Assembly (NCBI RefSeq): GCF_020510585.1
Contig: NZ_CP075190.1
Span: forward strand, 2,044,001-2,108,000
Reading direction: 5' to 3'
From: Ferribacterium limneticum
GTDB lineage: Bacteria > Pseudomonadota > Gammaproteobacteria > Burkholderiales > Rhodocyclaceae
DNA length: 64,000 nt
Under the pieces are notes generated by a model that saw only the letters and a list, made by a program, of their open reading frames with translations, made no database searches and was not told where the DNA came from. A program made the translations under genes and the position numbers. Below, in pieces: positions 5,994-58,495 of this stretch (positions are counted from its first letter, which is position 1; every line of letters begins with the position of its first letter).

Positions 5994-6554
5994 CTAGCCG
6001 GTCCAGGCGTATTTGAGCAGGCGGTCGAGGTCGGCGCGCATCCCTTGGGGGCTGGCGTCGGAGGGGTAGGTCATGATCACGAGGCCCTGTGGATCGACCA
6101 GCAGCACGGGGTCGGTGATTTCAGCCAGTGCGCCGGGCGGTGCGGTCAGCACCATCAGGTCGGGTTGGCTGGCGTGCAGGGCGAGCAGGGCTGGATCGTC
6201 CGGCTGGTCAGTCAGAACGGCGCGGCTCAGGCGGCCCATGTTTTTGTAGAGGGCGACGTGGATTCGGCGCATTTCGTCGAGACGGTTCGAGCATTCGGCG
6301 GCGCACGGGCCGCTGACACGGAGTACCAGTTTCCATTTTTCGGCATTTTTTCCGGTTGACCGTAGCATTTGCTCCGGCAGTGGCCGGGGCGGGTTGAGCA
6401 GGTGGCCGTGATGCCCGATTCGGGACGGATGCCAGCCACTGAAGTAAAGGCCGGCGCCGATGATGAAGGGTAAGGCCAGCAGGCCGACGATCAAGGCCAG
6501 CATCAGCCGGCCCTGGCGCTGGTTGGGAAGTGGCTGGATGGCGAGGCTGTTCAT
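5994..6554 (-). CDS. SCO-like membrane-anchored thioredoxin-fold protein of the oxidase operon
   Basis: A 186-residue protein with one N-terminal membrane helix (RLMLALIVGLLALPFIIGAGLYF) and a periplasmic thioredoxin-like domain. It has a degenerate CXXXC (CAAEC) and the segment DPVLLVDPQGLVIMTYP, found in proteins of betaproteobacterial cox operons. It probably assists copper delivery or thiol chemistry during oxidase assembly; this is inferred from fold and position. ATG 6554 was chosen because it overlaps the surf1 stop as ATGA; a longer in-frame start at 6614 would run far into surf1. A copy of the 39-nt dispersed repeat lies inside (6329-6367) and encodes part of LRSTGKNAEKWK. Confidence 0.8.
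   Translation of the reverse strand: MNSLAIQPLPNQRQGRLMLALIVGLLALPFIIGAGLYFSGWHPSRIGHHGHLLNPPRPLPEQMLRSTGKNAEKWKLVLRVSGPCAAECSNRLDEMRRIHVALYKNMGRLSRAVLTDQPDDPALLALHASQPDLMVLTAPPGALAEITDPVLLVDPQGLVIMTYPSDASPQGMRADLDRLLKYAWTG
6329..6367 (+). repeat. 39-nt dispersed repeat, copy A
   Basis: T-rich left arm with CGGC, then the exact core TTTCCGGTTGACCGTAGCA (6349-6367). It is antisense to, and inside, the SCO-like gene, read there as CGG TCA ACC (R-S-T). Confidence 0.8.
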
Positions 6555-7291
6555 GGCCGACGGATCAGGAAATAGGCCCAGATGCCGAGGCTGGCGATGG
6601 CGAAACCGAACCATTGCAGGGCGTAGCTGCGGTGGCGGTCGGCCCGTTCGTCCGGGCGCGGCCAGTCGCGCACATAGCCGCCCGGTGCCGTCGGGTCGAG
6701 CTGAATGACCAGGCCTTGCAGGGGATAGGGCACGGCCGAGCGGAAGCGTTCGATATCGAGGTTCTGCCAGACCGGCGCCCAGCCGCTGGTCGGTTGCGGT
6801 GCCAGGTTGAAGAAGCGCTGGGTGGGCAGTACGGCAATGCCGCTCAATTCAATTTCACCGGCCGGCACTTCGGCCACCGGCTGCTGCTGATGATCGGCCG
6901 GGGCGGCCAGCCAGCCGCGATTGACCAGCACATGCATGTTCGATCCGGTCAGCTGCAGGGGCGTGATGACGTGATAGCCAGCCTGTTCCTGATGCAGGCG
7001 GTTGTCGATCAGGACCTGGTGGGCGGCGTCGTAGGTGCCGTGGAGGATGACCCGGTGATGGCGCAGGGAATCAACATCGGCCAGCGTGCTTGGCATGGCG
7101 ATGGCGGCATCGTGGCTGCGGGTGTCGAGTTCGATTTGCAGCGCGGTTTTGGTCTCGGCCTTGCGCCATTGCCAGAGGCCGAGCGAAATGAAGGCCGGCA
7201 ACAGGAAGGCGAGCAGCAGGCCGCCGAGGATCGCCGCCTGCCTGCGGCTGGCCCTTGCCGCGCCGCCCGGCCGGCGCGCATACTGGGCCAC
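6551..7291 (-). CDS. surf1: SURF1 family cytochrome oxidase assembly protein
   Basis: Assists insertion of heme A into oxidase subunit I. It has two membrane helices flanking a periplasmic domain: N-terminal GGLLLAFLLPAFISLGLWQW and C-terminal WFGFAIASLGIWAYFLI. The family motifs LWQWRK, NRGWL and GGYVRDW are present. The GTG at 7291 (VAQYARRPGG) is preferred because AGGA lies 7 nt upstream and it avoids the divergent DUF2909 gene; an ATG at 7318 would overlap that gene's start. The stop overlaps the SCO-like start by 4 nt. Confidence 0.9.
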   Translation of the reverse strand: MAQYARRPGGAARASRRQAAILGGLLLAFLLPAFISLGLWQWRKAETKTALQIELDTRSHDAAIAMPSTLADVDSLRHHRVILHGTYDAAHQVLIDNRLHQEQAGYHVITPLQLTGSNMHVLVNRGWLAAPADHQQQPVAEVPAGEIELSGIAVLPTQRFFNLAPQPTSGWAPVWQNLDIERFRSAVPYPLQGLVIQLDPTAPGGYVRDWPRPDERADRHRSYALQWFGFAIASLGIWAYFLIRRP

Positions 7292-7316
7292 GGAAATTCC
7301 TGCGGAGGCGTCGCCC

Positions 7317-7517
7317 ATGCTCAAGCTGCTGGTTGTTTTGCTGTTGTTGGCCATAGTCGGCAGCCTGTTCTCCGGGCTCTTCTATCTCTACCGCGACCGG
7401 GGGGCCGGCGAACGGACGGTGCGGGCGCTGACCCTGCGCATCGGGCTGTCCATCGCACTCTTCCTTGTGCTTCTGGCCGGATTCCGGTTCGGTTTCATTC
7501 CTGGCTACACCCAGTAA
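7317..7517 (+). CDS. DUF2909 small twin-helix membrane protein
   Basis: A 66-residue protein with two membrane helices (LLVVLLLLAIVGSLFSGLFY and IGLSIALFLVLLAGFRFGF) separated by a short charged loop. It matches the DUF2909 type found in betaproteobacterial oxidase clusters; function unknown. GGAGG lies 9 nt before the ATG. It is the only plus-strand gene in an otherwise minus-strand operon. Its 3' end overlaps coxC by 13 nt, and its start touches the alternative surf1 ATG. Confidence 0.85.
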   Translation: MLKLLVVLLLLAIVGSLFSGLFYLYRDRGAGERTVRALTLRIGLSIALFLVLLAGFRFGFIPGYTQ

Positions 7518-8997: not shown

Positions 8998-9001
8998 GGC
9001 G

Positions 9002-12622: not shown

Positions 12623-13701
<1,079 letters not shown>

Positions 13702-14417
13702 AGTGGCTGGCCGTTCGGGCCGAAGCTGTTTTCGTGAACCGTGATGTTGCCGCCAGCGTCTTGCCAGACCAGCGTCGAGGCACGCGTGCCATAACTTTCC
13801 GATTTCACGAAAATGGCCGACAACAGGCGTTCCCATTCGATGGGAACACCGGTACTCGGCAGGTTCTCATCGGCGACGATGGCTTGGTCGGCCAGCAGCT
13901 CGAAAAACGCCGATTCATCGGGCAGGCGGGACAATGCTTCGGCAAAACGCTGGCGGGCGGCCAGCAGTTTTGGCCACGGGCTGTCGAGCAGGTGATTCGA
14001 TAAGCCGTAAATGCCCGGTGCCAGCGGGCGTGGCTGGCCATCGCGATTCGAGCAATAAACCAGCGTATCGCCGTCACCCAGCAACAGGTTGAAGCCGGAA
14101 TATTGGTTGCCATCGATCTCTGTGGCATATTCCGCTGCCGATGATCTGGCAGTCAGGAAGCCCCGCGTCAGCCCGCCGCGGGATTGCGCGCCTTTGGCCA
14201 TGCCGGGTTCGCGCACATTGGTGACTGCGGCGAAGCGTCCGGATTCGCTGACTCCCAGCCATGTGCCGCCAGCTTCGAGATCGAGCCCGCCAATGACTTC
14301 CGGCGCATCGGGCCAGCGCCCCAGTGGCGCCGTCGGTCGGGCGTAGAACTCGTCTCGATTGGCCGCGACGACCAGCGGGAAATCCGGATGAACCCGCCAG
14401 CCGACGACGATCAGGCA

Positions 14418-14456
14418 CATTTCATTTTTGGCTGTTTTTACGGGTTGACCGCAGCA
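14418..14456 (+). repeat. 39-nt dispersed repeat, copy B
   Basis: Left arm ATTTCATTTTTGGC, core TACGGGTTGACCGCAGCA. It covers the NRDE start codon, the whole 17-nt gap and the ygfZ stop plus its last codons (AAVNP). Confidence 0.8.
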
Positions 14457-15457
14457 GCCTGAATGGAGGGGCCTTCCAGCGAACCAAGACGCACATTGCC
14501 GGCAAAATTGCTCTGGATAACGGCCAGGGCTTCATAGCCGCCGGTTGGCGACGGAGCGACGGTCATCACCGTGCCGCAGGACTGATCCGGGTTGTCGGGC
14601 GAGTGCAGAACATCGCCGGCCTTCAGTATCTGCGCGCTGGTCACGCGATGCAAATGGCGCTTGACCTTGCCGAGGTACTGAGTGCGGGCAACGATTTCCT
14701 GTCCCGGGTAACAGCCCTTGTGGAAACTGACGCCGCCAATTTTTTCGAAATCGGCCATTTGCGGCACGAACTCTTCCTTGGTGGCTAGCGTGACGAGCGG
14801 GAAAGCGGCCTGGATATCGAGCCAGCGCCAGGCGGGGATGCCTGCCGGACGGGCTTTGACGGTGAGTTTTTGCCACAGCGCCGCCATCGCCGACTCCGGT
14901 GCCACAATCATGAAACGCGTGGTATCGAGGCGAATGACGGTTGTGCCATCGGCGGTGGCCGTAGCCACCATCGCTTCAGCCGGGCAGGGCAGTCCGGCAC
15001 CGGACAGTGCCTCTTCGGCTTGCGGCCCGGAGAGGCCAAGCATGACGGTGCTGTCGGTCTGCGCAGCAAGTTTTACTTTTGCCCGCAAGACGAACATTTG
15101 CAGGCGCTTTTGCGTTGCTTCCTGCAGGTCGGCAGCCAGTGCGAGGAGATAGCGCTCGCCCTGACGCCAGACGACGAAACTGGCCTGCATCCGCCCCTTG
15201 GCCGTGCACCATCCGGCATGCTGCGCCTGCCCATCGGCCAGATGGTTGATATCGCTGGTGAACTGGCTGTGCAGGAAGGCCTTGGCCTCTTCACCCGTGG
15301 CTTCGATAAGTCCAAGGTGGGTGAGCGGGACAACGACGGTCTGCTGCGTTGCGGCGAGCAGTTCGCCGGCGGCGTCGCCGAAGTTGAGAAGCTCGGTCGA
15401 ATCGTTATCGAAGACACCTTCGGTCGATTCCAGAAAGCTGCGCCAGTGGGGATTCAT
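14438..15457 (-). CDS. ygfZ: Folate-binding YgfZ protein
   Basis: A tetrahydrofolate-dependent protein that aids maturation or repair of certain [4Fe-4S] enzymes such as MiaB. It has the hallmark KGCYPGQEIVARTQYLGKVKR near residue 250 with its conserved Cys. The GcvT-like fold covers most of its 339 residues. ATG 15457 (MNPHWRSFLES) has AGGAG upstream and fits the family; an extension to 15523 was rejected. The last residues (AAVNP) are encoded by repeat copy B. Divergent from mltG across about 90 nt. Confidence 0.92.
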   Translation of the reverse strand: MNPHWRSFLESTEGVFDNDSTELLNFGDAAGELLAATQQTVVVPLTHLGLIEATGEEAKAFLHSQFTSDINHLADGQAQHAGWCTAKGRMQASFVVWRQGERYLLALAADLQEATQKRLQMFVLRAKVKLAAQTDSTVMLGLSGPQAEEALSGAGLPCPAEAMVATATADGTTVIRLDTTRFMIVAPESAMAALWQKLTVKARPAGIPAWRWLDIQAAFPLVTLATKEEFVPQMADFEKIGGVSFHKGCYPGQEIVARTQYLGKVKRHLHRVTSAQILKAGDVLHSPDNPDQSCGTVMTVAPSPTGGYEALAVIQSNFAGNVRLGSLEGPSIQAAAVNP

Positions 15458-18550: not shown

Positions 18551-19324
18551 ATGCTGGTCGACTCCCATTGCCACCTCGATTTTCCTGATCTGGCCAATCG
18601 CATGCCGGACGTCCTGCAACGCATGCAGGAAAACCAGGTCGATCTGGCGGTCTGCATCGGCGTCAATCTGGAAGATTTTCCGCAGGTGATCGCCCTCGCC
18701 GAGCAACATGCGCAGCTCTATGCAACGGTGGGCGTCCATCCTGAATACACGGATGTCGAAGAGCCCGATGAAGACAGGCTTTTGGGCCTTGCCGCACACC
18801 CTAAAGTGATCGCCATCGGAGAAACCGGGCTCGACTACTATTGGCAGAAGGATCAGCCGGAGTGGCAGCGCGATCGTTTCCGGACCCACATTCGGGCTGC
18901 CAAGCGTTGCGGCAAACCATTGGTGGTGCACACGCGGGATTCCTCTGCCGATACCTTGCGCGTCCTGAAGGAAGAGTGTGCCGATGCGGTCGGCGGTGTC
19001 ATGCACTGCTTTACCGAAAACTGGGATATTGCGCGTCTGGCGCTTGATCTCGGCTTCTATCTCTCATTTTCGGGAATCGTCACGTTCAAGAACGCTATCA
19101 TCGTCAAGGAAGTGGCGAAGAAATGCCCTTTGGACCGCCTTCTCGTCGAAACCGACTCGCCCTATCTGGCGCCAGCCCCGTATCGCGGCAAACCAAACGA
19201 GCCGGCCTACGTACGCTACGTCGCCGAGGAAGTCGCCAAGCTGCGTTCGATCAGCATCGATCAAGTTCACCAGGCGACGACCGATAATTTCTTTTCGTTG
19301 TTCAAAGGGGCAAAACGGCCATGA
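18551..19324 (+). CDS. tatD: TatD family metal-dependent hydrolase
   Basis: A TIM-barrel metallohydrolase, a 3'-5' DNase or deacylase-like enzyme depending on member. Metal ligands are seen in DSHCHLDF (residues 4-11), GETGLDYY, VHTRDS, MHCFTEN and ETDSPYLAP. ATG 18551 is preferred to the TTG at 18542. Its stop lies within the ATGA that starts the ankyrin gene. Confidence 0.94.
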   Translation: MLVDSHCHLDFPDLANRMPDVLQRMQENQVDLAVCIGVNLEDFPQVIALAEQHAQLYATVGVHPEYTDVEEPDEDRLLGLAAHPKVIAIGETGLDYYWQKDQPEWQRDRFRTHIRAAKRCGKPLVVHTRDSSADTLRVLKEECADAVGGVMHCFTENWDIARLALDLGFYLSFSGIVTFKNAIIVKEVAKKCPLDRLLVETDSPYLAPAPYRGKPNEPAYVRYVAEEVAKLRSISIDQVHQATTDNFFSLFKGAKRP

Positions 19325-19356
19325 AAATTAGCCAAAAATTCCGGTTGACCGTAGCA
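19318..19356 (+). repeat. 39-nt dispersed repeat, copy C
   Basis: Right half strongly conserved: AGCCAAAAATTCCGGTTGACC, then GTAGCA. It overlaps the tatD stop and the first twelve codons of the ankyrin gene, where CGG TTG ACC reads as R-L-T in the signal peptide. Confidence 0.75.
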
Positions 19357-19989
19357 ATTGCCCTCGCGCTCCCAGCGCTCGCCTGCGCTGCCACCTATGA
19401 TGATCTGATCTCCTCGGCCAAGATGGGCAACGTCAGCGAAATCGCCCAACTTGCTGCCAAGGGCGCATCCCTCGACACTACCGATATCGACGGCAACACG
19501 CTGTTGATGCTGGCAGCCCGTGACGGGCATGCCGAAGTGGTGGACTATCTGATCAAGAACCGCGCCAAACTAAACGCCCGCAACGCGGCAGGCGACACGG
19601 CGCTGCGTCTGGCTGCCTTTCGCGGCCATCAGAAAGTTGTCGAGTTATTGCTGGCCGGCGGTGCGGCAGTCAACATGCAAGGTTGGACGCCATTAGCCTA
19701 TGCGGCATTCAGTGGCCATCTTGAGATTGCCAGGCTACTCATCAAGTCTGGCGCGGACGTGAATCTGGCATCCGAGAACGGTACTACTCCGTTGATTGCA
19801 GCTTCGCGTAGCGGGCACAAGGATGTCGTACAACTACTGATCGCCAGCAAGGCCGACCTGGGCCGTACCCTCGATAGCGGTGAAACGGCTCTGGATATCG
19901 CAATGCGATTCAATAACACGGATATTGGCGAGCTGATACGAAAGGCTGGCGGTAAGTCAGGAAAAACGGTCACTATCGAGGTTCGATAG
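19321..19989 (+). CDS. Exported ankyrin-repeat protein
   Basis: A 222-residue protein with a signal peptide (LTVAIALALPALACA|ATYDDL) and five to six ankyrin repeats from residue 30 (DIDGNTLLMLAARDGHAEVV, then similar units about every 33 residues). It is predicted periplasmic and probably mediates protein binding; partner unknown. The ATG overlaps the tatD stop. The signal peptide's n-region is encoded by repeat copy C, an unusual origin for a leader. Confidence 0.88.
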   Translation: MKISQKFRLTVAIALALPALACAATYDDLISSAKMGNVSEIAQLAAKGASLDTTDIDGNTLLMLAARDGHAEVVDYLIKNRAKLNARNAAGDTALRLAAFRGHQKVVELLLAGGAAVNMQGWTPLAYAAFSGHLEIARLLIKSGADVNLASENGTTPLIAASRSGHKDVVQLLIASKADLGRTLDSGETALDIAMRFNNTDIGELIRKAGGKSGKTVTIEVR

Positions 19990-33067: not shown

Positions 33068-33408
33068 CGCAATTGATCGTCCTGCCACATCTTGAACTTT
33101 GCCCGGATGGCGCCGTCATTGAAGCGGAAGAGGGTAAATCGATTTGTGAGAATCTGTTGGCCAACGAGATCGAACTCGATCATGCCTGCGAAATGTCTTG
33201 TGCCTGCACCACCTGCCACGTCATCGTGCGCGATGGCTTCGACTCGTTGGAGCCGGCTGAAGACATCGAAGAAGATCTCCTCGACAAGGCCTGGGGCCTG
33301 GAACCCAATTCGCGCCTCGGTTGCCAGGCAATCGTACGGTCAACGCCAATAACAGTCGAAATTCCGAAATACAGCATCAACATGGCGAAGGAGGGGCATC
33401 GCAAATGA
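33064..33408 (+). CDS. fdx: [2Fe-2S] ferredoxin of the isc operon
   Basis: An adrenodoxin-type ferredoxin that supplies electrons for cluster assembly. Ligands Cys42, Cys48, Cys51 ([15 protein letters not shown]) and Cys87 (RLGCQAI) match E. coli Fdx. Its 114 residues are normal. Overlaps hscA (ATGA) and iscX (ATGA). Confidence 0.97.
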
Positions 33409-38010: not shown

Positions 38011-38049
38011 GATTTCAATTTTGGCCGAAATTTCCGGTTGACCGTGGCA
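38011..38049 (+). repeat. 39-nt dispersed repeat, copy D
   Basis: GATTTCAATTTTGGCC left arm and exact core TTTCCGGTTGACCGTGGCA (38031-38049). It lies wholly intergenic between DUF167 and the DAHP synthase gene. Confidence 0.85.
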
Positions 38050-38125
38050 AATCTTCAGGCGTCATACCGCGTTACTCCAGGCCGATTTGTCCAATGACAT
38101 CTCGGCCTGCTATCCCCGGGAAATT

Positions 38126-39205
38126 TCAGGAAAGGCGTTCCGGCAGCACGTCGCGGAGCAGGATGGCGGCGTCGCGGATCATCTTTTCGGTAGTCGCCCA
38201 ATCGACGCAGCCATCGGTGACCGAGCAACCGTACTTAAGTTGGCTAAGGTCGGCCGGAATCGACTGGTTGCCGGCTTCGATGTTGGATTCGATCATCACG
38301 CCGAGCAGCGATTTGTTGCCGAGGCGGACCTGGTTGACGATGTCGGCCATGACCAGCGGTTGCAGTTCCGGTTTCTTAAAGCTGTTGGCGTGCGAGCAGT
38401 CGACAACGATGTTGTGCGGCAGCTTGGCCTTGTCCAGCGCCTGTTCGACCATGGCGATGGAAACGGTATCGTAGTTCGGGCGGCCATCGCCGCCGCGCAG
38501 CACGATGTGGCCGTAGCCGTTGCCCTTGGTGCGGACGACGGCAACCCGGCCCTGGCTGGTCAGACCGAGGAAGGAGTGTGGCTTGGAGGCGGAGAGGATG
38601 GCGTTGACGGCAACGCCGAGGTCGCCGCTGGTACCGTTCTTGAAGCCAACCGGGGTGGACAGTCCCGATGACATCTCGCGGTGGGTCTGCGATTCGGTGG
38701 TGCGGGCGCCGATGGCGGTCCACGTGATGAGGTCGCCGTAGTATTGCGGCGAGTTCGGGTCGAGCGCCTCGGTGCCCGTCGGTACGCCGAGTTCGGCAAC
38801 CTGGAGCAGGAATTCGCGGGCCTTGGCCATGCCGATATCGATGCGGAAGCTGTCGTCCATGAACGGGTCGTTGATGTAACCCTTCCAGCCAACCGTGGTG
38901 CGCGGTTTTTCGAAATAGACGCGCATGATCAGTTGCAGCGTGTCGCCGACTTCTTCAGACAGCTTTTTCAGGCGGCGGGCATAGTCTAGGCCGGCCACCG
39001 GGTCGTGGATGGAGCACGGGCCGACCACCACGAACAGGCGATGGTCCTTGCGATCCAGGATGTTGCGCAGTACATGCCGACCATGGGTAACCGTCTTGGC
39101 AGCTTTCTCGGAAAGCGGCAGGCGGGCGTGGATTTCTTCCGGCGTCGGCATTTCGTCGAAGGCGGTGACGTTGATATTGTCGATGTGATGTGTGGTCATG
39201 GTCAT
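38126..39205 (-). CDS. aroG: 3-deoxy-7-phosphoheptulonate (DAHP) synthase, class I
   Basis: Condenses phosphoenolpyruvate and erythrose 4-phosphate at the entry of the shikimate pathway. It has the GPCSIHDP, RVYFEKPRTTVGWKG, DCSHANS and GVMIESNI motifs of type I-alpha enzymes. Its 359 residues are normal. The feedback specificity (Phe, Tyr or Trp) cannot be told from sequence alone, so the aroG symbol is nominal. ATG 39205 overlaps the mfd stop as ATGA. Confidence 0.93.
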   Translation of the reverse strand: MTMTTHHIDNINVTAFDEMPTPEEIHARLPLSEKAAKTVTHGRHVLRNILDRKDHRLFVVVGPCSIHDPVAGLDYARRLKKLSEEVGDTLQLIMRVYFEKPRTTVGWKGYINDPFMDDSFRIDIGMAKAREFLLQVAELGVPTGTEALDPNSPQYYGDLITWTAIGARTTESQTHREMSSGLSTPVGFKNGTSGDLGVAVNAILSASKPHSFLGLTSQGRVAVVRTKGNGYGHIVLRGGDGRPNYDTVSIAMVEQALDKAKLPHNIVVDCSHANSFKKPELQPLVMADIVNQVRLGNKSLLGVMIESNIEAGNQSIPADLSQLKYGCSVTDGCVDWATTEKMIRDAAILLRDVLPERLS

Positions 39206-42200
39206 TTGCTCAGCTGGCGAATCATGTCTTTCACCGCAACGACCTTGTCGTTCAAGGTCGGGCAGTGGCGTAAAAGGGAAAGTTTATCCTGTCCTGCCAG
39301 CTTATAGCTGCGGTCTTTTTGAATCAAATTGATTATCTTGATCGGCTCGATTGGCGGGTTTTTCGAGAACTCGGGACTGAACTGGATGGTGATCTGGTCG
39401 TTGGTCGCGTCGAGCTTCTGGATGAGCAGCGGTTTGACTAGCAGACGCAGGCGGTGCGTGGCGAGTAGCGACTGCGCCTGAAGCGGCAGTTCGCCGAAGC
39501 GGTCGATCAGTTCTTCCTGGAGCGTGTCGATTTCCTCGGTGCTTTCACCGTTGGCCAGGCGTTTGTAGAGGGTCAGGCGTTCGTGCACGTCCGGGCAGTA
39601 AGCGTCGGGCAGAAGGGCCGGGGTACGCAGGTTGATCTCGGTGCCGATACCCAGCGGCTGGGTCAGGTCGACCGCGGCCAGATGCTTGCCCTGCTTGAGG
39701 GCAGCGACTGCACGGTTGAGCATGTCGGCATACATGTTGAAGCCGACTTCCTGCATTTCGCCGGACTGGTTGTCGCCGAGTACCTCGCCGGCGCCGCGGA
39801 TTTCCAGATCGTGCATGGCGAGGAAGAAGCCGGAGCCGAGTTCTTCCATGGCCTGGATGGCTTCAAGACGCATCCTGGCCTGCTTGGTCAGTGCCTTGTC
39901 GTCCTGGACGAGCAGATAGGCGTAGGCCTGGTGGTGCGAACGGCCGACCCGGCCGCGCAACTGGTGCAACTGGGCGAGACCGAACTTCTCGGAACGGTTG
40001 ATCAGGATGGTATTGGCATGCGGATTGTCGATGCCGGTTTCGATGATGGTCGTGCACAGCAACACGTTGGCGCGCTGGCCGGTGAAGTCGCGCATGACGC
40101 GCTCCAGTTCGCGCTCGTTCATTTGGCCGTGGCCGATGACGATGCGCGCTTCCGGCACCAGCTTGGCCAGCTTTTCCTGCATGTTGTTGATGGTGTCGAC
40201 CTCGTTGTGCAGGAAGTACACCTGGCCACCGCGCTTGAGTTCGCGCAGGACGGCTTCGCGGATGATGCCGTCGGAGAAATTGCTGACGAAAGTCTTGATG
40301 GCCAGGCGCTTTTGCGGCGCAGTGGCGATGACCGAGAAGTCGCGCAGGCCTTCCATCGACATCGCCAGCGTGCGCGGAATCGGCGTTGCAGTCAGGGTCA
40401 GGACATCGACCTCGGCGCGCATCGACTTCAGCGTTTCCTTCTGGCGTACGCCGAAACGGTGTTCCTCGTCGATGACGACGAGGCCGAGGCGCTTGAATTT
40501 GACGTCCTTGCCGATCAGCTTGTGCGTGCCGATGATGATGTCGATCTTGCCTTCGGCCAGTTCCTGCAAGGCTTGCGCCGATTCCTTGGCGGTCTTGAAG
40601 CGGGAAATTTCGGCGATTTTGACCGGCCAGTCGGCGAAGCGGTCGGCGAAGGTCTGGTAATGCTGTTCGCAGAGCAGGGTGGTTGGGCACAGCACGGCGA
40701 CCTGCTTGCCACCGGCGACGGCGCAGAAGGCGGCACGCAAGGCGACTTCGGTCTTGCCGAAGCCGACGTCGCCGCACACCAGGCGGTCCATCGGCTTGCC
40801 GGAGCGCATGTCGTCGATGACAGCAGCGATGGCGGTAGCCTGATCGTTGGTTTCCTCGAAGCCGAAACCATCGGCAAAGGCTTCGTAATCGGTTTCCTTG
40901 AAGTCGAAGGCATGGCCCTCGCGGGCAGCGCGGGCGGCATACAGCGCGAGTAGTTCGGCCGCGGTGTCATGCGCCTGCTCGGCGGCCTTGCGCTTGGCTT
41001 TTTCCCACTGGCCGGAACCGAGCGTGTGGAGCGGGGCGCTTTCCGGGTCGGAGCCGGAGTAGCGCGAGATGACGTGCAACTGGGCAACAGGGACGAACAG
41101 CTTGGCCTCGTTGGCGTAATGCAGTTCGAGGAACTCCTGCTCGCCGAGGCCGAGGTCCATGCGAACCAGGCCCTGATAGCGGCCGATGCCATGGCTTTCA
41201 TGGACGACCGGATCGCCGACCTTGAGTTCGGTGAGGTCTTTCAGCCAGTTGTCGAAGGTGGCTTTTTTCTGCGCTTCGCGCCGGGTGCGCCGCGGACTGC
41301 CGGCAAACAACTCGGTTTCGGTGATGAAGGCGAGCTTTTCCAGGGCAAAGCCGGCCTGCAAGGGGCCGATGCCGAGAGCTAGTTGCGCCTTGCCAGTGAG
41401 GAAGGCAGGCAGGTCGGCAACGGCTTCGGGCTTCAGGCCATGCTCGGCGAACATCGCCGCCAGGGTTTCGCGGCGGCCAGCCGTTTCGGCGACCAGCAAG
41501 ACCCGGCCGGCAAAGCCGGCGAGATGATTTTTCAGGGCGCCGAGGGGCGCCTCGCTTCTGCGGTCAACGGCAATATTGGGCAGTTTTCCTGAAGCATTTT
41601 CATTTTTTGCCTCAAATGCCAGTCGACCGTAGGATTTGGCCGCCGTGAAGAAGGCTTCGTCCGACAGGAAGAGTTCATCGGGCGGCAGCAATGGACGGGA
41701 TTTGTCGCCCTGCAGCATGTTGTAGCGCGAACGGGTGTCGTTCCAGAAGGCGGCGATGGCGGCCGGCGCATCGCCGTGGGTGACGAAGACAGCGTCTTTG
41801 GGCAGGTAGTCGAAGATGCTCGCCGTTTCGTCGAAGAACAGGGGCAGGTAGTACTCGATGCCGGCGCTGGCGATGCCGGTCGAAATATCCTTGTAGATGC
41901 CTGACTTGGCCGGGTCGCCCTCGAAGCGTTCGCGGAAGCACTGGCGGAAATGGGTGCGGCCCTTGTCGTCCATCGGGAATTCGCGGGCCGGCAGCAGGCG
42001 GACTTCGGGCACCGGATAGACGGTGCGCTGGGTATCGACATCGAAAGTTTTGATGCTTTCGATTTCATCGTCGAACAGGTCAAGCCGGTAGGGCAGTTGC
42101 GAGCCCATCGGGAAGAGGTCGATCAGGCCGCCGCGAATCGAGTATTCGCCGGGCGAGACGACCTGAGTGACGTGAGCGTAGCCGGCCAGCGTGACCTGGC

Positions 42201-42642
42201 TGCGGAATTTCTCGGCGTCGAGTTTCTGGCCCTTCTTGAAGGCGAAGGTGTAGGCGGCGAGGAAAGCCGGCGGTGCAATCCGGTAAACAGCCGTCGAGGC
42301 CGGCACGAGCAGGATGTCGATTTCGCCCTGGGTAGCGGCCCACAAGGTGGCCAGCCGTTCGGAGACGAGATCCTGGTGCGGGGAAAAATGGTCGTAAGGC
42401 AGCGTTTCCCAGTCCGGCAGTAGACGGACGCGCAGCGTCGGTCCGAACCATGGGATTTCATCAAGCAGTCGCTGGGCATCGGCCGCGCTGGCGGTGACGA
42501 CGGCGAGCAGTTTCCCGGGGTGACGCACGGCGATTTCGGCCAGAGCCAGGGCGTCGGCGGAACCGGCCAATAGCGGCAGGTCGATGCGGTTACCGGCCTT
42601 GGGCAGGGCAGAAAGGGGGAGCAAAAACTGGGGAGCGGACAC
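39202..42642 (-). CDS. mfd: Transcription-repair coupling factor Mfd
   Basis: Removes RNA polymerase stalled at DNA damage and recruits UvrA. An 1146-residue protein: UvrB-homology region first, then the RNAP-interacting domain (VGDPVVHESHGIGRYQGLVRM), RecG-like translocase motifs GDVGFGKTEVALRAAF and DEEHRFGVRQKE, and a C-terminal regulatory domain. ATG 42642. The inverted repeat pair E/F lies inside it, near residues 336-363, in a region poorly conserved among Mfd proteins. Confidence 0.97.
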   Translation of the reverse strand: MSAPQFLLPLSALPKAGNRIDLPLLAGSADALALAEIAVRHPGKLLAVVTASAADAQRLLDEIPWFGPTLRVRLLPDWETLPYDHFSPHQDLVSERLATLWAATQGEIDILLVPASTAVYRIAPPAFLAAYTFAFKKGQKLDAEKFRSQVTLAGYAHVTQVVSPGEYSIRGGLIDLFPMGSQLPYRLDLFDDEIESIKTFDVDTQRTVYPVPEVRLLPAREFPMDDKGRTHFRQCFRERFEGDPAKSGIYKDISTGIASAGIEYYLPLFFDETASIFDYLPKDAVFVTHGDAPAAIAAFWNDTRSRYNMLQGDKSRPLLPPDELFLSDEAFFTAAKSYGRLAFEAKNENASGKLPNIAVDRRSEAPLGALKNHLAGFAGRVLLVAETAGRRETLAAMFAEHGLKPEAVADLPAFLTGKAQLALGIGPLQAGFALEKLAFITETELFAGSPRRTRREAQKKATFDNWLKDLTELKVGDPVVHESHGIGRYQGLVRMDLGLGEQEFLELHYANEAKLFVPVAQLHVISRYSGSDPESAPLHTLGSGQWEKAKRKAAEQAHDTAAELLALYAARAAREGHAFDFKETDYEAFADGFGFEETNDQATAIAAVIDDMRSGKPMDRLVCGDVGFGKTEVALRAAFCAVAGGKQVAVLCPTTLLCEQHYQTFADRFADWPVKIAEISRFKTAKESAQALQELAEGKIDIIIGTHKLIGKDVKFKRLGLVVIDEEHRFGVRQKETLKSMRAEVDVLTLTATPIPRTLAMSMEGLRDFSVIATAPQKRLAIKTFVSNFSDGIIREAVLRELKRGGQVYFLHNEVDTINNMQEKLAKLVPEARIVIGHGQMNERELERVMRDFTGQRANVLLCTTIIETGIDNPHANTILINRSEKFGLAQLHQLRGRVGRSHHQAYAYLLVQDDKALTKQARMRLEAIQAMEELGSGFFLAMHDLEIRGAGEVLGDNQSGEMQEVGFNMYADMLNRAVAALKQGKHLAAVDLTQPLGIGTEINLRTPALLPDAYCPDVHERLTLYKRLANGESTEEIDTLQEELIDRFGELPLQAQSLLATHRLRLLVKPLLIQKLDATNDQITIQFSPEFSKNPPIEPIKIINLIQKDRSYKLAGQDKLSLLRHCPTLNDKVVAVKDMIRQLSK
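41556..41594 (-). repeat. 39-nt dispersed repeat, copy E
   Basis: Degenerate copy in mfd. On the minus strand the core reads ATTGCCGTTGACCGCAGAA, translated as GTT GAC CGC (V-D-R). Forms an inverted pair with copy F, 1 nt away. Confidence 0.55.
41596..41634 (+). repeat. 39-nt dispersed repeat, copy F
   Basis: Left arm ATTTTCATTTTTTGCC well conserved, right end AGTCGACCGTAGGA. It is antisense to mfd, opposite in orientation to copy E, leaving CGGTC and GACCG at the outer ends. Confidence 0.65.
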
Positions 42643-44186: not shown

Positions 44187-44258
44187 CGGAGTCTCCTGAA
44201 TTGTTGTTTACATACTCAGTCTAGTCGCGATGCGGCCAATTGCCATCGCCGTGATAAA

Positions 44259-44297
44259 TCTCACGGTCAACCGGAAAAAAGGCCCAAAAACCAAGTC
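44259..44297 (-). repeat. 39-nt dispersed repeat, copy G
   Basis: On the minus strand: GGTTTTTGGGCC arm then core TTTCCGGTTGACCGTGAGA. It encodes the last residues (FLGLFSG) and the TGA stop of the hydrolase gene. Confidence 0.85.
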
Positions 44298-48600: not shown

Positions 48601-49287
48601 ATGCCACGCCATTACGCAATCGTTCCCGCTGCCGGCAGCGGTTCCCGCTTCGGTAGCGAGAAGCCCAAACAGTACCTCGACCTGCTCGGTCGCCCGCTGA
48701 TTTTCCACACCTTGAAGGCTTTGACCGCTTGTCCGGACATCGAACGGGTGTGGGTCGTGCTGGCTCCGGATGACCCGTGGTGGCCGCGCTTCGACTGGAG
48801 CGAACTCGGTCCCAAGCTCGAAACCGTACGCTGTGGCGGGGCGACGCGGGCGGCAAGCGTGAGCAACGGCTTGCGCGCGGCGGCCATGGTCGCGGCCGAC
48901 GACGACTGGATCCTCGTGCACGACGCGGCGCGGCCCTGCCTGTCGGCGGCCATGCTCGATGCGCTGTTTGCCGAGCTGGCCGACGATCCGGTCGGCGGCA
49001 TCCTCGCCGTGCCGGTCGCCGACACCATCAAGCGGGCCGATGCCGAACAGCGTGTCGCCGCCACCGAGCCGCGCGACGGTTTGTGGCAGGCGCAGACGCC
49101 GCAGATGTTTCGCTACGGTCAACTGGAAAAATCGCTCAAAAATGAAATGGCCGTCACCGACGAAGCCGGCGCCATCGAGGCCATGGGCCTCCAGCCGAAG
49201 CTGGTGCGCGGCGATGCGACCAATCTGAAAGTCACCTATCCGGCCGACCTCGCCTTGGCCGCGATGATCTTGAGGGCACGCAAATGA
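48601..49287 (+). CDS. ispD: 2-C-methyl-D-erythritol 4-phosphate cytidylyltransferase
   Basis: Third step of the MEP isoprenoid pathway, joining CTP to MEP. It has the nucleotide motif [20 protein letters not shown] at the N-terminus and the catalytic VHDAARPCL. Its 228 residues are normal. Coupled by ATGA to ispF. Repeat copy H lies inside, encoding [13 protein letters not shown] near residue 171. Confidence 0.97.
49111..49149 (-). repeat. 39-nt dispersed repeat, copy H
   Basis: On the minus strand: CATTTCATTTTTGAGC arm, then TTTCCAGTTGACCGTAGCG. It is inside ispD, read there as TAC GGT CAA CTG. Confidence 0.75.
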
Positions 49288-49766: not shown

Positions 49767-50352
49767 GCGCCGAAACCAGAAGCAAGCCAAACCGGCCACG
49801 GCCAGAGTTTTCTTCGCGCTCTGGCCAGCGCCGGAAGTCGCCGAGCGCCTCGGCGACATCGCCCACGACAGTGCCCAGTCGTTCGGCGGCCGCGCCACCC
49901 GCCGCGAGACTATCCACCTGACGCTGGCATTCCTTGGCAACGTTCCGGAAGCGCGTCTGCCTGATCTGTCGATTGCCGCTGCCAGCGTTGGCGGCGAGCC
50001 ATTTGCCATCAACGTCGACCAGCTCGGCTTCTGGTCGCACAACCATTTGCTGTGGGCTGGATGCAGGCTACCTTCGCCCGCGCTCGACGCGCTTTCCAGC
50101 CAGTTGCGCAAGGCCCTGGCGCGGGCCGGATTCAGGGTCGGCGGCGAGGGTCGCGATTTCGTCCCGCACATTACGCTGGTCCGCCGCGTACCGGAGGCTA
50201 CTGCGCCGTCCGAACGCCGCCCGCTCCCATCGATTGAATCCTTCCCCTGGCGCAACGAACGTTTCGTGCTGGTTCGCTCGACGCTGTCGGCGCTCGGCTC
50301 GTCCTACCAGATCATTGACGAATTCCCGTTGACGGCAGGCTTCAGCGCCTGA
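49756..50352 (+). CDS. thpR: RNA 2',3'-cyclic phosphodiesterase (ThpR/LigT)
   Basis: A two-histidine phosphoesterase. Motifs IHLTLAFLG and VPHITLVRR are the two HxT boxes. N-terminal [16 protein letters not shown] is typical. GTG 49756 overlaps ispF; longer in-frame starts lie within ispF. Its 198 residues are normal. Closer to the canonical ThpR than the paralogue at 3353. The 3' end overlaps the convergent kinase gene by 11 nt. Confidence 0.9.
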
Positions 50353-51646
50353 TCGGCAGGACCAGGCGAACGAGCAGGCCGCCGCCGGGGTTGGGCAGCA
50401 GATCGAGCCGTCCGTCGTGCAGTCTGGCAATGCGCTCGACGATGGCCAGTCCGAGCCCGGTGCCGGTGGTGTCGGTGCGGGCGCTCTCGAGCCGGGTGAA
50501 GGGGCGTTTCAGCCGCTCGATCTCGGTTGGCGGAATGCCGGGGCCGCGATCGCTGATTTCTACCTGAATTTCACCGTTGACCGCAGCAGCAGTCAGCGTG
50601 ATTTGGCCGCCACCGTACTTGACGGCGTTGTCGATCAGGTTGGTGACGGCACGAGTGATCGCCTTCGGCCGCAGCACCGTTTCGGGCAGGGCTTGGATTG
50701 CCGTGGTCAGCTCGTGGCCAACACAGCGCTGGCGTTCGGCCAGGTCGGAGAGCAGGGCGCCAAGATCGGTCGCCACCCCAGCCTCGCCGGACTCCGTCCG
50801 GGCGTAATCCATAAACTGGGAAATCACCGCCTCCATCTGCTCGATGTCGGCCACCACCGCCTGACGGGCGCTGTCGGTGACACTCATTTCGGCCTCCAGA
50901 CGCAATCGGGTCAGAGGGGTGCGCAGGTCGTGCGAGATGCCGGCCAGCACCTCCGATCTATCCTTTTCATGGCGTTCGAGATCGGCTGCCATGGTGTTGA
51001 AGGCAACGGCCAGCCGACTCAGTTCCTCGGCGCCATCCTCGGGCAGCGGCGCCGGCTTCTCGCCGCGACCGACCGTCTCGGCCGATTTCGCCATGGCCTT
51101 GAGCGGCCGGCTGATGCGCGAGGCGATCAGCCAGGCGACCGCCAGGGCCAGGACTACAGCGAGCAGACCCCAGGCCAGCCAGTGGCTGGCGAAGTCGCGG
51201 GCGGCACGGTCGCGGGGCAGGACCAGCCAGTATTCTTCATCATCGGCATCGTCGAGGCGGAAACTGACCCAGAAGCCGGAAACGCCATCGACGCTGGCGG
51301 CAATCCGCGTGTGCTCGCCCAGGCGACTTGTCAGCTCGCGCTGCAGGAGCCGGAAAAAGCGCGAATCGGGCATCGCCTCGATCTTGTCTTCCGGTTCGGC
51401 CGGCAGCAGACGAATGCCTTCGCGCGTCGAGAATTCGGTGAACAGACCGAGACGCTTGTCCGGCGCCGCGGCAAACAGCGAGGCGCGGATCAGGTTGACG
51501 GCAGACGCCGCCAGTTGGGCAGTTTCCCGTGCCCGTGGTTCGGCATCAATGTAGCGAAACAGGCTGAGCCAGCCCGCCGTGGTCAGCAGCACCAGCATGG
51601 CCAGCAGCAGAAAGGTGCGCGCCAGCAGCGTGCGCGGCATCAGCAC
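50342..51646 (-). CDS. EnvZ-type sensor histidine kinase
   Basis: A two-helix membrane sensor kinase with a periplasmic loop of about 120 residues, HAMP region after VVLALAVAWLIASRISRPLKAM, H-box GISHDLRTPLTRLR, N-box NLIDNAVKYGGG, G-boxes DRGPGI and TGTGLGLAIV. GTG 51646 has AAGGA at suitable distance; ATG 51640 is the alternative. It follows the response regulator by 5 nt. The stimulus is unknown; an osmotic or envelope role would follow the family. Confidence 0.92.
   Translation of the reverse strand: MLMPRTLLARTFLLLAMLVLLTTAGWLSLFRYIDAEPRARETAQLAASAVNLIRASLFAAAPDKRLGLFTEFSTREGIRLLPAEPEDKIEAMPDSRFFRLLQRELTSRLGEHTRIAASVDGVSGFWVSFRLDDADDEEYWLVLPRDRAARDFASHWLAWGLLAVVLALAVAWLIASRISRPLKAMAKSAETVGRGEKPAPLPEDGAEELSRLAVAFNTMAADLERHEKDRSEVLAGISHDLRTPLTRLRLEAEMSVTDSARQAVVADIEQMEAVISQFMDYARTESGEAGVATDLGALLSDLAERQRCVGHELTTAIQALPETVLRPKAITRAVTNLIDNAVKYGGGQITLTAAAVNGEIQVEISDRGPGIPPTEIERLKRPFTRLESARTDTTGTGLGLAIVERIARLHDGRLDLLPNPGGGLLVRLVLPIRR
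50550..50588 (+). repeat. Possible degenerate copy L of the 39-nt repeat
   Basis: Core AATTTCACCGTTGACCGCAG, then CA, inside the kinase gene (encodes AAAVNGEI on the other strand). The left arm is weak. It could be coincidence. Confidence 0.35.
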
Positions 51647-51651
51647 CCGGA

Positions 51652-52380
51652 CTATTCCTTGGCGGCGCCGTCCGGCACGAAGACGTAGCCGAAACCCCAC
51701 ACCGTCTGCAGGTAACGTGGCTGGGCCGGGTCGGCTTCGATGAGTTTGCGCAGGCGCGACACCTGGACGTCGATGGCGCGGTCGAAGGGCCCTTGTTCGC
51801 GGCCGCGGGCCAGGGTCATCAGCTTGTCGCGCGACAGCGGCTGGCGTGGATGCTGGAGCAGCACCTTGAGGACAGCGAATTCGCCGGTGGTCAGGGATTG
51901 CAGTTCATCGCCGCGGGTCAACGTGCGGGCGGCGAGATCGACTTCGATGTTGCCGAAGGTGATCTTTTCCTGGTCGTCTTCAGGCGCACCGGGCGGGCGG
52001 CTGCCCTGGCGGCGCAGAACGGCGTGAATGCGGGCGAGCAGTTCGCGCGGGTTGAAGGGTTTGGGCAGGTAGTCGTCGGCGCCCATTTCGAGGCCGACGA
52101 TGCGGTCGATCTCGTCGCCCTTGGCGGTCAGCATGATGATCGGCGTCCGGTCTCCCTGGCCGCGCAGGCGGCGGCAGATGGTCAGGCCATCTTCACCGGG
52201 CATCATGAGGTCGAGGACGATCAGATGGAAATGGTCGCGGGCACGCAGTTTGTCCATCTGCTGGCCGTCGGCGGCAGCCTTGACCTCGAAGCCCTGCTCG
52301 CCGAGGTAGCGTGTGAGCAGGTCGCGCAGGCGGGCGTCGTCATCGACGACAAGGATATGTTGGTGTTGTTGTTCGTTCAT
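51652..52380 (-). CDS. ompR: OmpR-type response regulator
   Basis: A 242-residue regulator. Receiver domain at 5-120 with the phospho-Asp in LIVLDLMMPGEDG and the conserved Lys in DDYLPKPFNPREL. The winged-helix DNA-binding domain at about 145-235 contains LTTGEFAVLKVLLQHP and TVWGFGYVFVPDG. ATG 52380 is used; the longer frame to 52929 is antisense to DUF3106. First gene of the regulator-kinase operon. The symbol is by family. Confidence 0.93.
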   Translation of the reverse strand: MNEQQHQHILVVDDDARLRDLLTRYLGEQGFEVKAAADGQQMDKLRARDHFHLIVLDLMMPGEDGLTICRRLRGQGDRTPIIMLTAKGDEIDRIVGLEMGADDYLPKPFNPRELLARIHAVLRRQGSRPPGAPEDDQEKITFGNIEVDLAARTLTRGDELQSLTTGEFAVLKVLLQHPRQPLSRDKLMTLARGREQGPFDRAIDVQVSRLRKLIEADPAQPRYLQTVWGFGYVFVPDGAAKE

Positions 52381-54861: not shown

Positions 54862-54900
54862 GATTTCATTTTTGACTGTTTTTCCCGGTTAACCGTGGGA
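54862..54900 (+). repeat. 39-nt dispersed repeat, copy I
   Basis: GATTTCATTTTTGACTG arm; core TTCCCGGTTAACCGTGGGA. It fills most of the gap between the convergent udg and lplT ends. Confidence 0.8.
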
Positions 54901-54910
54901 ACGGCGGAAC

Positions 54911-56176: not shown

Positions 56177-56365
56177 GAAATATTTGTCTCTTATATGACT
56201 TTGGGCGAGGTTTATACCACGCTGAGAATTCGGCGCAAGGCTTGCGCGATCGTCGCCGTTATGCATCGTTGCGCCAGCCCCGGTCAAATCATTCAAGCCT
56301 AGGTAGCGCCGGTTAAGGCTTGATGACAGACGGTCATTGTCGCATGCGCTGCCTTGATTTGCGGC

Positions 56366-56404
56366 TGTCACGGTCAACCGGAAATTTTGCCCAATAATTG
56401 ATTT
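56366..56404 (-). repeat. 39-nt dispersed repeat, copy J
   Basis: On the minus strand: ATTATTGGGCAAAA arm and exact core TTTCCGGTTGACCGTGACA. It lies in the 290-nt divergent region between lplT and the LysR gene, which otherwise carries only leaders and promoters. Confidence 0.85.
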
Positions 56405-56466
56405 GGCCGCCGGAAGCGCGGCGGAATGTGATTGAATATCGGCCGCACCCCTCCAGGAGAGAAATC

Positions 56467-57369
56467 ATGGCTGACCGGCGCTTGCAGGTCTTTCATGCCG
56501 TCGCAAAACATCTGAGCTTTACGCGGGCGGCCGACGCCTTGTTCATGACGCAGCCGGCCGTCACCTTCCAGATCAAGCAACTGGAAGAGCAGTACGGCAC
56601 GCGTCTGTTCGAGCGGCGGCACGGCGGCATTTCGCTGACGCCGGCTGGCGAGATGGTGCTCTCCTACGCCGATAGAATCCTCGCGCTGTCCGATGAAATG
56701 GAGACGCGGCTGTCCGAAATGACCGGCGAAATGCGCGGCCCGCTGCTTGTCGGCGCCAGCACGACCATCGCCGAGTTCATGCTGCCGCGCGTCCTCGGCG
56801 AATTCAATGCGGCCTACCCGCAAGTACGGGCGCGGCTCATTGTCGCCAACTCCGAAAGCATCGAGAGCCGGGTGGCCGAACACACCCTCGATGTCGGGCT
56901 GATCGAGGTGCCGGCCAAGCTCGCCGGCCTGACCAGCCAGATTTGCTGCGAAGACGAATTGCAGGTCATCTGCGCGCCCGACTACCCGCTGGCCGGCATG
57001 ACGTCGGTAACGCCGAAAGCGCTCGCCGAATATGAATACATCTCGCGTGAACCGGGCTCGGGGACGCGGGAAATCACCGATGCCTATTTCCTCGCCCACA
57101 AGGTGCCGCCAGGCAGCCTCAAGACGCAGATGGAACTGGGCAGTCCGGAATCGCTGAAAGGCGTCGCATCGACCGGCCTCGGTTTCGCCATCGTGCCGAA
57201 GGCTGTGGTCGCCAAAGAAATCCAGCTCGGCGAACTGGTCGCCATCCCGCTTGATCCGCCGCTCAAACGCAGCCTCTATCTGGTTTTCCAGAAAGATCGC
57301 TTCCAGTCGCGGCTGACTGGCACTTTTATTGAATTCACTCGAGTAAAACTGAAAGAAATGGCTTCATGA
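56467..57369 (+). CDS. LysR-type transcriptional regulator
   Basis: A 300-residue LTTR. Winged helix-turn-helix at about 1-60 (FHAVAKHLSFTRAADALFMT), followed by the substrate-binding domain with LLVGASTTIAEFMLPRVLG. The effector is unknown. AGGAG precedes ATG 56467. It overlaps alr by 4 nt, so regulator and alanine racemase are cotranscribed. It may act on lplT, which is divergent. Confidence 0.92.
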   Translation: MADRRLQVFHAVAKHLSFTRAADALFMTQPAVTFQIKQLEEQYGTRLFERRHGGISLTPAGEMVLSYADRILALSDEMETRLSEMTGEMRGPLLVGASTTIAEFMLPRVLGEFNAAYPQVRARLIVANSESIESRVAEHTLDVGLIEVPAKLAGLTSQICCEDELQVICAPDYPLAGMTSVTPKALAEYEYISREPGSGTREITDAYFLAHKVPPGSLKTQMELGSPESLKGVASTGLGFAIVPKAVVAKEIQLGELVAIPLDPPLKRSLYLVFQKDRFQSRLTGTFIEFTRVKLKEMAS

Positions 57370-58478
57370 AAACCTCGCGTCCCATTCGTGCGCGCATCGC
57401 ACCGGCGGCGATCCTCCACAACTACCGGCTGGCCAAAAGCCATGCCCTGCAAGCCAAAGCCTGGGCTGTCGTCAAGGCCAATGCCTACGGGCATGGTCAA
57501 TGGCGCGCCGTCGAAGCGCTACGCGGCGAAGCCGACGGTTTTGCCCTGCTCGAATGCGAAAACGCCGTCGCCCTGCGCGAAGCCGGTGTCACCCAGCCCA
57601 TCCTGTTGCTCGAAGGTGTGTTCAGCGCGCGCGATGTGCGGGCTGTCATCGAACATCGGCTGACCTGCGTCGTCCATTGCCTCGAACAACTCGAATTGCT
57701 CGTCCGGAATGGCCAGTTTACGGCACCCGTCTCGCTCTATCTGAAACTCAATACCGGCATGAACCGCCTAGGCTTTACGCCGGAAACGCTGAGCAAGGCC
57801 TGGGTAATCCTGCAGCAACTGCCGCAGATTGAAGTCACGCTGATGACCCATTTCGCCGAAGCCGATGGCGAGCGTGGCGTCAGTGAACAGCTTGAGCGCT
57901 TTCACCGAATGGCCGGCGACTGGTCTGGCCCGGTCTGCCTCGCCAACTCGGCGGCCATCCTGAGCCACCCGACAACGCACGGCGACTGGGTGCGGCCGGG
58001 CATCATGCTCTACGGCGCCAGCCCGTTTGACGGGGTCAGCGCCGGTTCGTTCGGTTTGCAGCCAGCGATGACACTGGAGAGCACCATCATCGGCGTGCAG
58101 GATCTGGTGGCCGGCGACCGTGTCGGTTACGGCGGCATCTTTACCGCCGACCGGCCGATGCGCATCGGCGTCGTGGCCTGCGGCTATGCCGACGGTTATC
58201 CGCGCCACGCGCCGAACGGCACGCCGATTGCCGTCATGGGCAAGCGCACGAAAACGGTCGGCCGGGTGTCGATGGACATGCTGGCCTGCGACCTCAGCGA
58301 TATTCCCGAAGCCGGCATCGGCGCCCCGGTGACCTTGTGGGGCGAAGGCATTGCCGGCAGCGTGCCGGCCGATGAAGTCGCTACTGCCGCCGGCACCATC
58401 GCATACGAACTGTTCTGCGCCCTGGCGCCCCGCGTCCCGGTCAGCCTGGACGAGAATCCTGCGGTCAACCGGAAATAA
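57366..58478 (+). CDS. alr: Alanine racemase
   Basis: PLP enzyme that makes D-alanine for peptidoglycan. The PLP lysine is Lys37 (VVKANAYGHG), and the catalytic Tyr is in RVGYGGIF. Its 370 residues are normal. The C-terminal NPAVNRK and the TAA come from repeat copy K. The TAA shares one base with the radA ATG. Confidence 0.96.
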   Translation: MKTSRPIRARIAPAAILHNYRLAKSHALQAKAWAVVKANAYGHGQWRAVEALRGEADGFALLECENAVALREAGVTQPILLLEGVFSARDVRAVIEHRLTCVVHCLEQLELLVRNGQFTAPVSLYLKLNTGMNRLGFTPETLSKAWVILQQLPQIEVTLMTHFAEADGERGVSEQLERFHRMAGDWSGPVCLANSAAILSHPTTHGDWVRPGIMLYGASPFDGVSAGSFGLQPAMTLESTIIGVQDLVAGDRVGYGGIFTADRPMRIGVVACGYADGYPRHAPNGTPIAVMGKRTKTVGRVSMDMLACDLSDIPEAGIGAPVTLWGEGIAGSVPADEVATAAGTIAYELFCALAPRVPVSLDENPAVNRK

Positions 58479-58495
58479 TGGCCAAAATCAAAACG
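58457..58495 (-). repeat. 39-nt dispersed repeat, copy K
   Basis: On the minus strand: GATTTTGGCCATTA then TTTCCGGTTGACCGCAGGA. It spans the alr stop and radA start, encoding VNRK of Alr and MAKIK of RadA. Confidence 0.85.

Follow-up and report, generated by a model that had tools for sequence, protein, structure and literature searches.

A probable DNA uptake sequence with species dialects in Azonexus/Dechloromonas-type betaproteobacteria

Introduction

What is the role of a short DNA repeat that recurs on both strands of a chromosome, within genes and between them? The question is raised by a 64,000-nt stretch of the Ferribacterium limneticum chromosome (NZ_CP075190.1, positions 2,044,001 to 2,108,000; hereafter the window), in which an initial annotation described eleven copies of a 39-nt repeat, made of a T-rich arm and a near-palindromic core, and offered as possible roles a nucleoid-protein or chromosome-architecture site, a small mobile element or an RNA element. 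We consider it probable that this repeat is a DNA uptake sequence and that the Azonexus/Dechloromonas group, to which its host probably belongs, is a third bacterial group with such a sequence; to our knowledge, this self-label for DNA uptake has so far been known from only two other bacterial families. The initial annotation did not recognize it as an uptake sequence, and the evidence points to a new one and not to one already known. Our reading is based on the abundance of the repeat, its architecture, the formation of coding copies without insertion, its dialects, its restriction to one genus in the genomes drawn, its absence from one foreign element, and the presence of comEC, dprA and pilin-like genes. 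From these we infer preferential uptake, a receptor, and a link between the loss of competence and the loss of the motif.

Results

All eleven copies are present where they were first described, without insertions or deletions and with a fixed spacing between arm and core, the exception to this spacing being a double-core form with 19 extra nucleotides that is treated below. We sampled 464 kb, made up of the window and 20 stretches of 20 kb placed at even intervals along the same genome, and built a profile from 81 core sites, the training stretches being those that were scanned. In the logo of these sites, conservation is sharp along 41 positions and absent on either side, with the consensus ATTTCAWTTTTGGCCnWWWWTTCCGGTTGACCGTRGnA followed by a weak tail; the 39 nt initially described is slightly short. 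At a threshold of at least 10 bits, which defines a site throughout, the profile finds 93 sites in the 464 kb and none in one first-order Markov shuffle, and at 0 bits or more 111 in the real and 2 in the shuffled sequence. Since 80 sites fall in the 400 kb outside the window, the genome should hold ~885 copies. A count independent of the trained profile agrees with the predicted hundreds per genome: the 16-nt core, with at most one mismatch, occurs 567 times in the 4.42-Mb chromosome (281 forward, 286 reverse) and its reversed pattern not at all, which sets chance aside as an explanation. The window itself contains 13 sites, namely the original eleven, a copy at 50550 (18.3 bits here and up to 30 bits in aligned relatives), and an unlisted one at 33329-33369 on the minus strand. 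The two weaker candidates of the initial annotation therefore part ways, 50550 being a profile site and 62707 not being among the sites of at least 10 bits.

The motif consists of a core, which reads CYACGGTCAACCGG on the complementary strand in this genome, and two AT tracts whose centres lie ~11 bp apart. A and T are interchangeable at several positions of the tracts. Nevertheless, TpA steps are avoided: among the 79 sites of at least 25 bits, the 60 whose inner tract is entirely A/T contain 11 such steps (31.7 expected), and the 69 with an all-A/T outer tract contain 6 (20.6 expected). Avoidance of TpA in the face of free A/T exchange suggests that the stiffness of the tracts, rather than their letters, seems to be under selection.

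In the genomes drawn, enrichment of the motif is confined to a part of one genus. The core in the dialect of F. limneticum was counted in 35 congeners (designated here by our own handles), with 567 matches in G002, 315 in G012, 245 in G003, 197 in G034, 65 in G005, 32 in G014, 24 in G017 and at most 18 in each of the remainder; 24 genomes drawn from other families contain 0-2. A broader pattern run over 297 genomes of the family gave 57-543 matches in ten of the twelve belonging to the same genus, 26 and 5 in the other two, and at most 14 in each of the other 285. The scan of other Rhodocyclaceae suggested with the initial annotation thus made only this genus stand out. Measured against the reversed control in 76 congeners, the motif is at least twice as frequent in 40 genomes (enriched 2.7-11 fold), 1.3-2 times as frequent in four, and less than 1.3 times in 32. 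On a tree of Mfd proteins, with 3 outgroup rows beside 30 congeners, six changes of the motif label are required, at least five of which are forced by supported branches. The closest Mfd records come mostly from metagenome bins that carry the labels Azonexaceae, Azonexus, Dechloromonas or simply Betaproteobacteria; among isolates, the closest are Dechloromonas and Azonexus, which makes it likely that the window belongs to this genus. Counts on individual loci give 9 motif matches (1 for the control) in the cultivated strain Azonexus hydrophilus ZS02 and 6 (1 for the control) in Dechloromonas denitrificans ATCC BAA-841, both motif-bearing; D. agitata is poor in the motif.

The core differs from species to species. 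De novo k-mer counts yielded GTYGACCGCAGCA in G030, GTCGACCGCT in G063 and a weak dialect core in G024; the dialects of the congeners, which include GTTGACCGTRG, have the inner core GTYGACCG in common, and the outer AT tract keeps its distance from the core in G030 and G063, where the inner tract is weak. A search for an alternative motif in 100 kb each of the motif-less G035, G354 and G357 found nothing strong, and the 100 kb searched in G376 gave a weak excess of GCGGTCGACG (10 versus 1.3) and likewise nothing strong. Separately, the motif-less G175 (L252-L256) carries a dispersed repeat of its own, GTCATTCCCGCG with CGCAGGCGGG, which has a GTCATTCCCGC unit.

How the copies arise was addressed through the net length difference to aligned relatives, which were at hand for 22 of the 93 sites, sites less than 200 nt from a stretch end being dropped. 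In 148 pairs of a coding copy with a motif-less relative, this difference is zero in 97, a small multiple of three in 42, another small value in three, and larger in six, in all of which our own sequence is the shorter one. No pair shows a motif-sized gap (+25 to +70 nt), and the coding copies examined were therefore built from existing codons; in these copies, the motif arises within genes by substitution and not by insertion. The alignments across the sites at 49108 and 50551 were checked by hand and are free of gaps, and at one coding site different species carry different cores. Sections of PMC1626085 report the same outcome for coding uptake signal sequences (USS), which did not behave as insertions in such a test.

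The double-core form has a second core 19 nt downstream and accounts for four of the 93 sites. Searched as a pattern with at most three mismatches, it occurs 17 times in the F. limneticum genome (G000:C1, L366-L382) and 43 times more in nine congeners. The 17 matches are nearly uniform over ~57 nt and have sharp ends, a uniformity that is partly selection, since they were picked by the pattern, and their flanks are mostly unrelated, L368 and L378 having a similar neighbour. At two orthologous loci, another species has the double form where F. limneticum has the single one, and the two differ by a 19-nt internal indel between direct repeats, so that double and single forms can interconvert in place by deletion or duplication.

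Competence genes are widespread in the genus. ComEC was found in 71 of the 76 congeners and in 51 of 51 genomes rated good, and DprA in 75 of 76; F. limneticum itself has a ComEC above the NCBIfam cut-off, DprA, and pilin-like genes. Damage to comEC meets absence of the motif in three genomes: in G035, the motif-less sister of motif-bearing G003, comEC is divided between two overlapping frames, and the genome has relic-like sites; in G018 only a 232-residue stretch of ComEC was matched; and in G376 the gene is interrupted. These three genomes fit decay of the motif with the loss of competence, a trend that is not significant over all good genomes (see below). The comEC genes of G019 and G008 are also split, possibly by the assembly.

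In G002 and G376, which are two species, comEC is interrupted at one and the same codon (~262 of a reference ComEC). The elements measure ~34 kb in G002 (L263:2112 to L264:15812) and ~32 kb in G376 (L265:2697 to L266:15158), and both start with a large serine recombinase; among ten proteins scanned, the former encodes a type B DNA polymerase, a D5-type primase, an ImpB/MucB-type polymerase and a CHAT protein, and the latter an AAA_13 ATPase. The comEC of G019 may hold a similar element. The ~34-kb element of G002 contains no motif site where 6.8 would be expected at the rate of the F. limneticum genome (Poisson p = 0.001), so the under-representation in acquired DNA is a result from one element; it is in line with the absence of the DNA uptake sequences (DUS) of Neisseria from recently acquired genes, described in sections of PMC2397512. 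An origin of the motif on plasmids or phages was rejected: no plasmid record contains 80% of a copy, and the 16-nt core occurs in 19 viral stretches, at most twice in each, which we take as chance (a separate phages collection lay outside this search). As receptor candidates, GspH-type pilins were compared in 12 genomes, where none follows the distribution of the motif, and the FimT-like proteins receive NCBIfam labels below the cut-off, except for a general pilin signal domain.

Several of our observations count against an uptake sequence and have to be set beside this evidence. The 148 coding pairs are not independent, 140 of them coming from four sites of the window (41553, 41597, 49108 and 50551), of which 41553 and 41597 are adjacent in mfd, and one genome can count as two loci; eight of the ten further coding sites contribute one motif-less pair each. 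When any BLAST gap is counted, 81 of 220 coding pairs are gapped versus 17 of 94 random coding windows, a count that we superseded by net length, since BLAST opens compensating gaps in diverged stretches. Between genes, 10 of 45 motif-less pairs fall at +25 to +70 nt (10 of 24 without the doubtful site at 33329), and the comparison of orthologous loci recommended with the initial annotation is accordingly divided: coding copies without insertion, intergenic copies often with a change in length. Gaps facing neisserial DUS in relatives are likewise described, and ascribed to recombination, in sections of PMC2397512. The near-uniform double-core form hints at copying. With regard to competence, the C-terminus of the F. 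limneticum ComEC falls ~97 residues short of that in G027, many congeners without the motif have long comEC frames and also DprA, and comEC is interrupted in G002 despite its 567 motif copies. Among the good genomes, leaving out two of intermediate enrichment, comEC was scored as broken in 4 of the 18 that lack the motif and in 3 of the 31 that bear it (p = 0.40); the list of broken genes was made by hand, three of its seven entries (G006, G008, G019) are partial hits at contig ends, and other partial hits (for example G263, G384, G361, G362) were scored as unbroken. This comparison gives neither support for nor refutation of the link to competence. A FimT-like pilin candidate, followed through 76 genomes, has close orthologs in eight, two of which are motif-less. 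Lastly, our search of the literature on Rhodocyclaceae, Dechloromonas and Azonexus, which covered few subscription papers, returned no report of the motif or of natural transformation for these bacteria.

The sites are unevenly placed with respect to genes. Intergenic sequence holds 48 of the 93 (18% expected, p below 1e-12), whereas called genes fully enclose 38, in both orientations (78% expected, p below 1e-12), and seven lie at gene edges. Within genes, 25 sites run opposite to the gene and 13 along it (p = 0.07), and 18 of the 25 opposite ones occupy one frame, a preference due in part to stop codons within the motif; unequal orientation within genes is reported for USS and DUS in sections of PMC2346458. 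Only two inverted pairs lie within 60 bp of each other, and three within 150 bp. One of these, at G000:C1:671401-671476 (L063, copies at 671401 and 671436), is a near-perfect inverted repeat with a very stable, terminator-like predicted hairpin (z -10.3).

Genes were called by a simple in-house caller that trimmed some starts. In the window, the copy at 6330..6370 (+, 56.3 bits) lies within a called gene (5994-6554, minus). That at 14419..14459 (+, 47.5 bits) lies between two genes of the minus strand, the 3' end of one with a GCV_T domain (14438-) and the 5' end of one with a TANGO2 domain (13671-14420), and the one at 19319..19359 (+, 43.9 bits) lies where a TatD-type gene ends and an ankyrin-repeat gene starts. 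The site added here at 33329..33369 (-, 21.4 bits) was called intergenic; it shows zero length difference in 19 of 21 motif-less aligned relatives and may be coding despite the call. The copy at 38012..38052 (+, 59.2 bits) is intergenic and downstream of a gene at 38126-39205 (-). Inside mfd (39202-42642, -), a degenerate copy at 41553..41593 (-, 16.7 bits) forms an inverted pair with one at 41597..41637 (+, 34.3 bits), with a moderate predicted hairpin (z -3.9); the latter site reads CCAGTCGACCGTAGGATTT or near variants of it in many congeners. At 44256..44296 (-, 52.3 bits), the TTGACC of the core provides the TGA stop codon of a minus-strand gene ending at 44267.

Two further copies lie inside genes: that at 49108..49148 (-, 47.7 bits), aligned without gaps in ten other congeners, and a weak one at 50551..50591 (+, 18.3 bits) in a RisS-like sensor kinase gene (50342-51700, -). 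The copy at 54863..54903 (+, 48.9 bits) falls between convergent genes, in a spacer that is shorter in most motif-less relatives; at the orthologous locus of G012 (L132), ~25 nt of hairpin-like sequence separate the AT tract from the core in the alignment. The intergenic copy at 56363..56403 (-, 45.2 bits) is kept in G002, G003, G012 and G034 despite diverged flanks. At 58454..58494 (-, 53.0 bits), the AT tract holds the ATG of a gene at 58478-59839 (+) that looks RadA-like by its domains.

Discussion

The repeat resembles the USS of the Pasteurellaceae (Hin and Apl types) in having a core with two discontinuous, rigid, narrow-groove AT tracts to one side of it, in occurring in hundreds to thousands of copies, in coding copies that are not insertions, and in lineage dialects. 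The AT tracts of the Haemophilus influenzae USS are described in sections of PMC7811141 as rigid and narrow-grooved, with a shape that aids uptake. On the strand on which the AT tracts follow the core, the dialect cores TGCTGCGGTCRAC (G030) and AGCGGTCGAC (G063) contain TGCGGT and AGCGGTC and overlap by 6-7 letters, in the same orientation, with the published USS cores AAGTGCGGT (Hin) and ACAAGCGGT(C) (Apl). This likeness of letters is suggestive and may be due to chance. The F. limneticum consensus core is CYACGGTCAACCGG and neither AAGTGCGGT nor ACAAGCGGT, the overlap is partial and belongs to the other dialects, and the host is a betaproteobacterium. The first AT tract also lies further from the core here than in USS.

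With the DUS of the Neisseriaceae, the repeat shares its many copies, species dialects around a common core, the capacity to supply stop or start codons, absence from recently acquired genes, and gaps in relatives at some sites. The architecture differs: DUS is described in sections of PMC12616744 as uninterrupted, up to ~13 nt long and free of AT tracts, and is marked by 10-13 continuous nucleotides with a CTG inner core, as opposed to the discontinuous 41 nt with AT tracts found here. The neisserial receptor, ComP, is known, whereas a receptor is here only proposed. The DUS sequence is unrelated to the present motif.

Based on these data, we propose a mechanism in which a receptor at the cell surface, belonging to the type IV pilus/competence machinery, would read the core CYACGGTCAACCGG on the complementary strand and, to one side of it, the shape of the two rigid AT tracts ~11 bp apart. 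Fragments bearing the motif would be taken up preferentially, pass through ComEC and recombine into the chromosome. Copies would then accumulate because the incoming DNA that replaces resident alleles is biased towards alleles with the motif, by base substitution in genes and by substitution, or by recombination with a change in length, between them. Drift of the receptor among species would generate the dialects, and the loss of competence or of receptor specificity would leave the copies to decay. It appears fairly likely that free-living Azonexus/Dechloromonas-type betaproteobacteria have in this way evolved recognition of self-DNA in natural transformation, have diversified it into species dialects and have lost it repeatedly, and that the core with its two rigid AT tracts, together with the GCGGT overlap in two dialects, reflects either convergence on, or shared ancestry of, one mode of receptor.

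The explanation that survives best beside an uptake sequence, and that we nonetheless regard as unlikely, is a binding site for a chromosome-organizing or segregation protein (a nucleoid protein, a condensin loader or a Chi/KOPS-like guide) selected at hundreds of places. A long conserved core with AT tracts selected for shape does resemble a protein site, copies occur in most parts of the chromosome (at least one in 19 of the 21 sampled stretches; the siteless ones are L068, which has polysaccharide-type genes, and L078, which does not look clearly foreign), and several orthologous loci keep the motif in G002, G003 and G012. A Chi/KOPS-type guide should show a strong leading-strand bias. Judged by GC skew, replication would start near 0 and end near 2.1-2.2 Mb, and a tally by hand along these replichores gives 52 leading and 41 lagging sites (p = 0.30); the strands also sum to 14448/14270 over the 40 enriched genomes. 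Position and strand relative to origin and terminus, a comparison suggested at the outset, thus reveal no clear bias. Of 76 congeners, 40 are enriched and 32 are not, with at least five changes on the Mfd tree, an odd pattern for a housekeeping system, and the motif both differs in dialect between species and is missing from the 34-kb integrated element. The architecture role first envisaged therefore fits less well than an uptake sequence, the presence of the motif flipping within the genus without clear replichore polarity.

Still less probable is a short non-autonomous mobile repeat of the REP/MITE type, once multiplied by copying and now in decay. The hundreds of dispersed, partly intergenic copies are shared with REP/BIME and MITE-like repeats, the double-core form, with its sharp ends and near-uniformity (partly a matter of pattern selection), hints at copying, and relatives have gaps at some intergenic sites. 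The small mobile element of the initial annotation fails at the coding copies, where none of the motif-less pairs has a motif-sized insertion and where cores differ between species at one site, while the intergenic copies are ambiguous. In addition, the two single copies that we folded form no hairpin, double and single forms interconvert in place at two orthologous loci, and gaps in relatives are equally met by neisserial DUS (sections of PMC2397512).

A transcription signal, be it a terminator, an attenuator or an operator of a global regulator, is highly improbable: about half of the copies are intergenic and the inverted pairs at 671401/671436 and in mfd have predicted hairpins, but copies lie wholly inside genes in both orientations, inverted pairs are rare, and the two single copies tested give folds that do not surpass those of shuffled sequence (z +0.24 and +0.56), which, with the strand balance of the core, also speaks against the RNA element first suggested.

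If the repeat is indeed an uptake sequence, the uptake-sequence mode would not be tied to the Pasteurellaceae and Neisseriaceae, and would operate here in environmental bacteria. It would allow the origin of uptake sequences, their drift into dialects and their loss to be tested independently, for which the 40 enriched and 32 non-enriched genomes within one genus provide the material, and cultivated bacteria would be on offer for receptor searches. It would also predict what DNA is exchanged among these bacteria.

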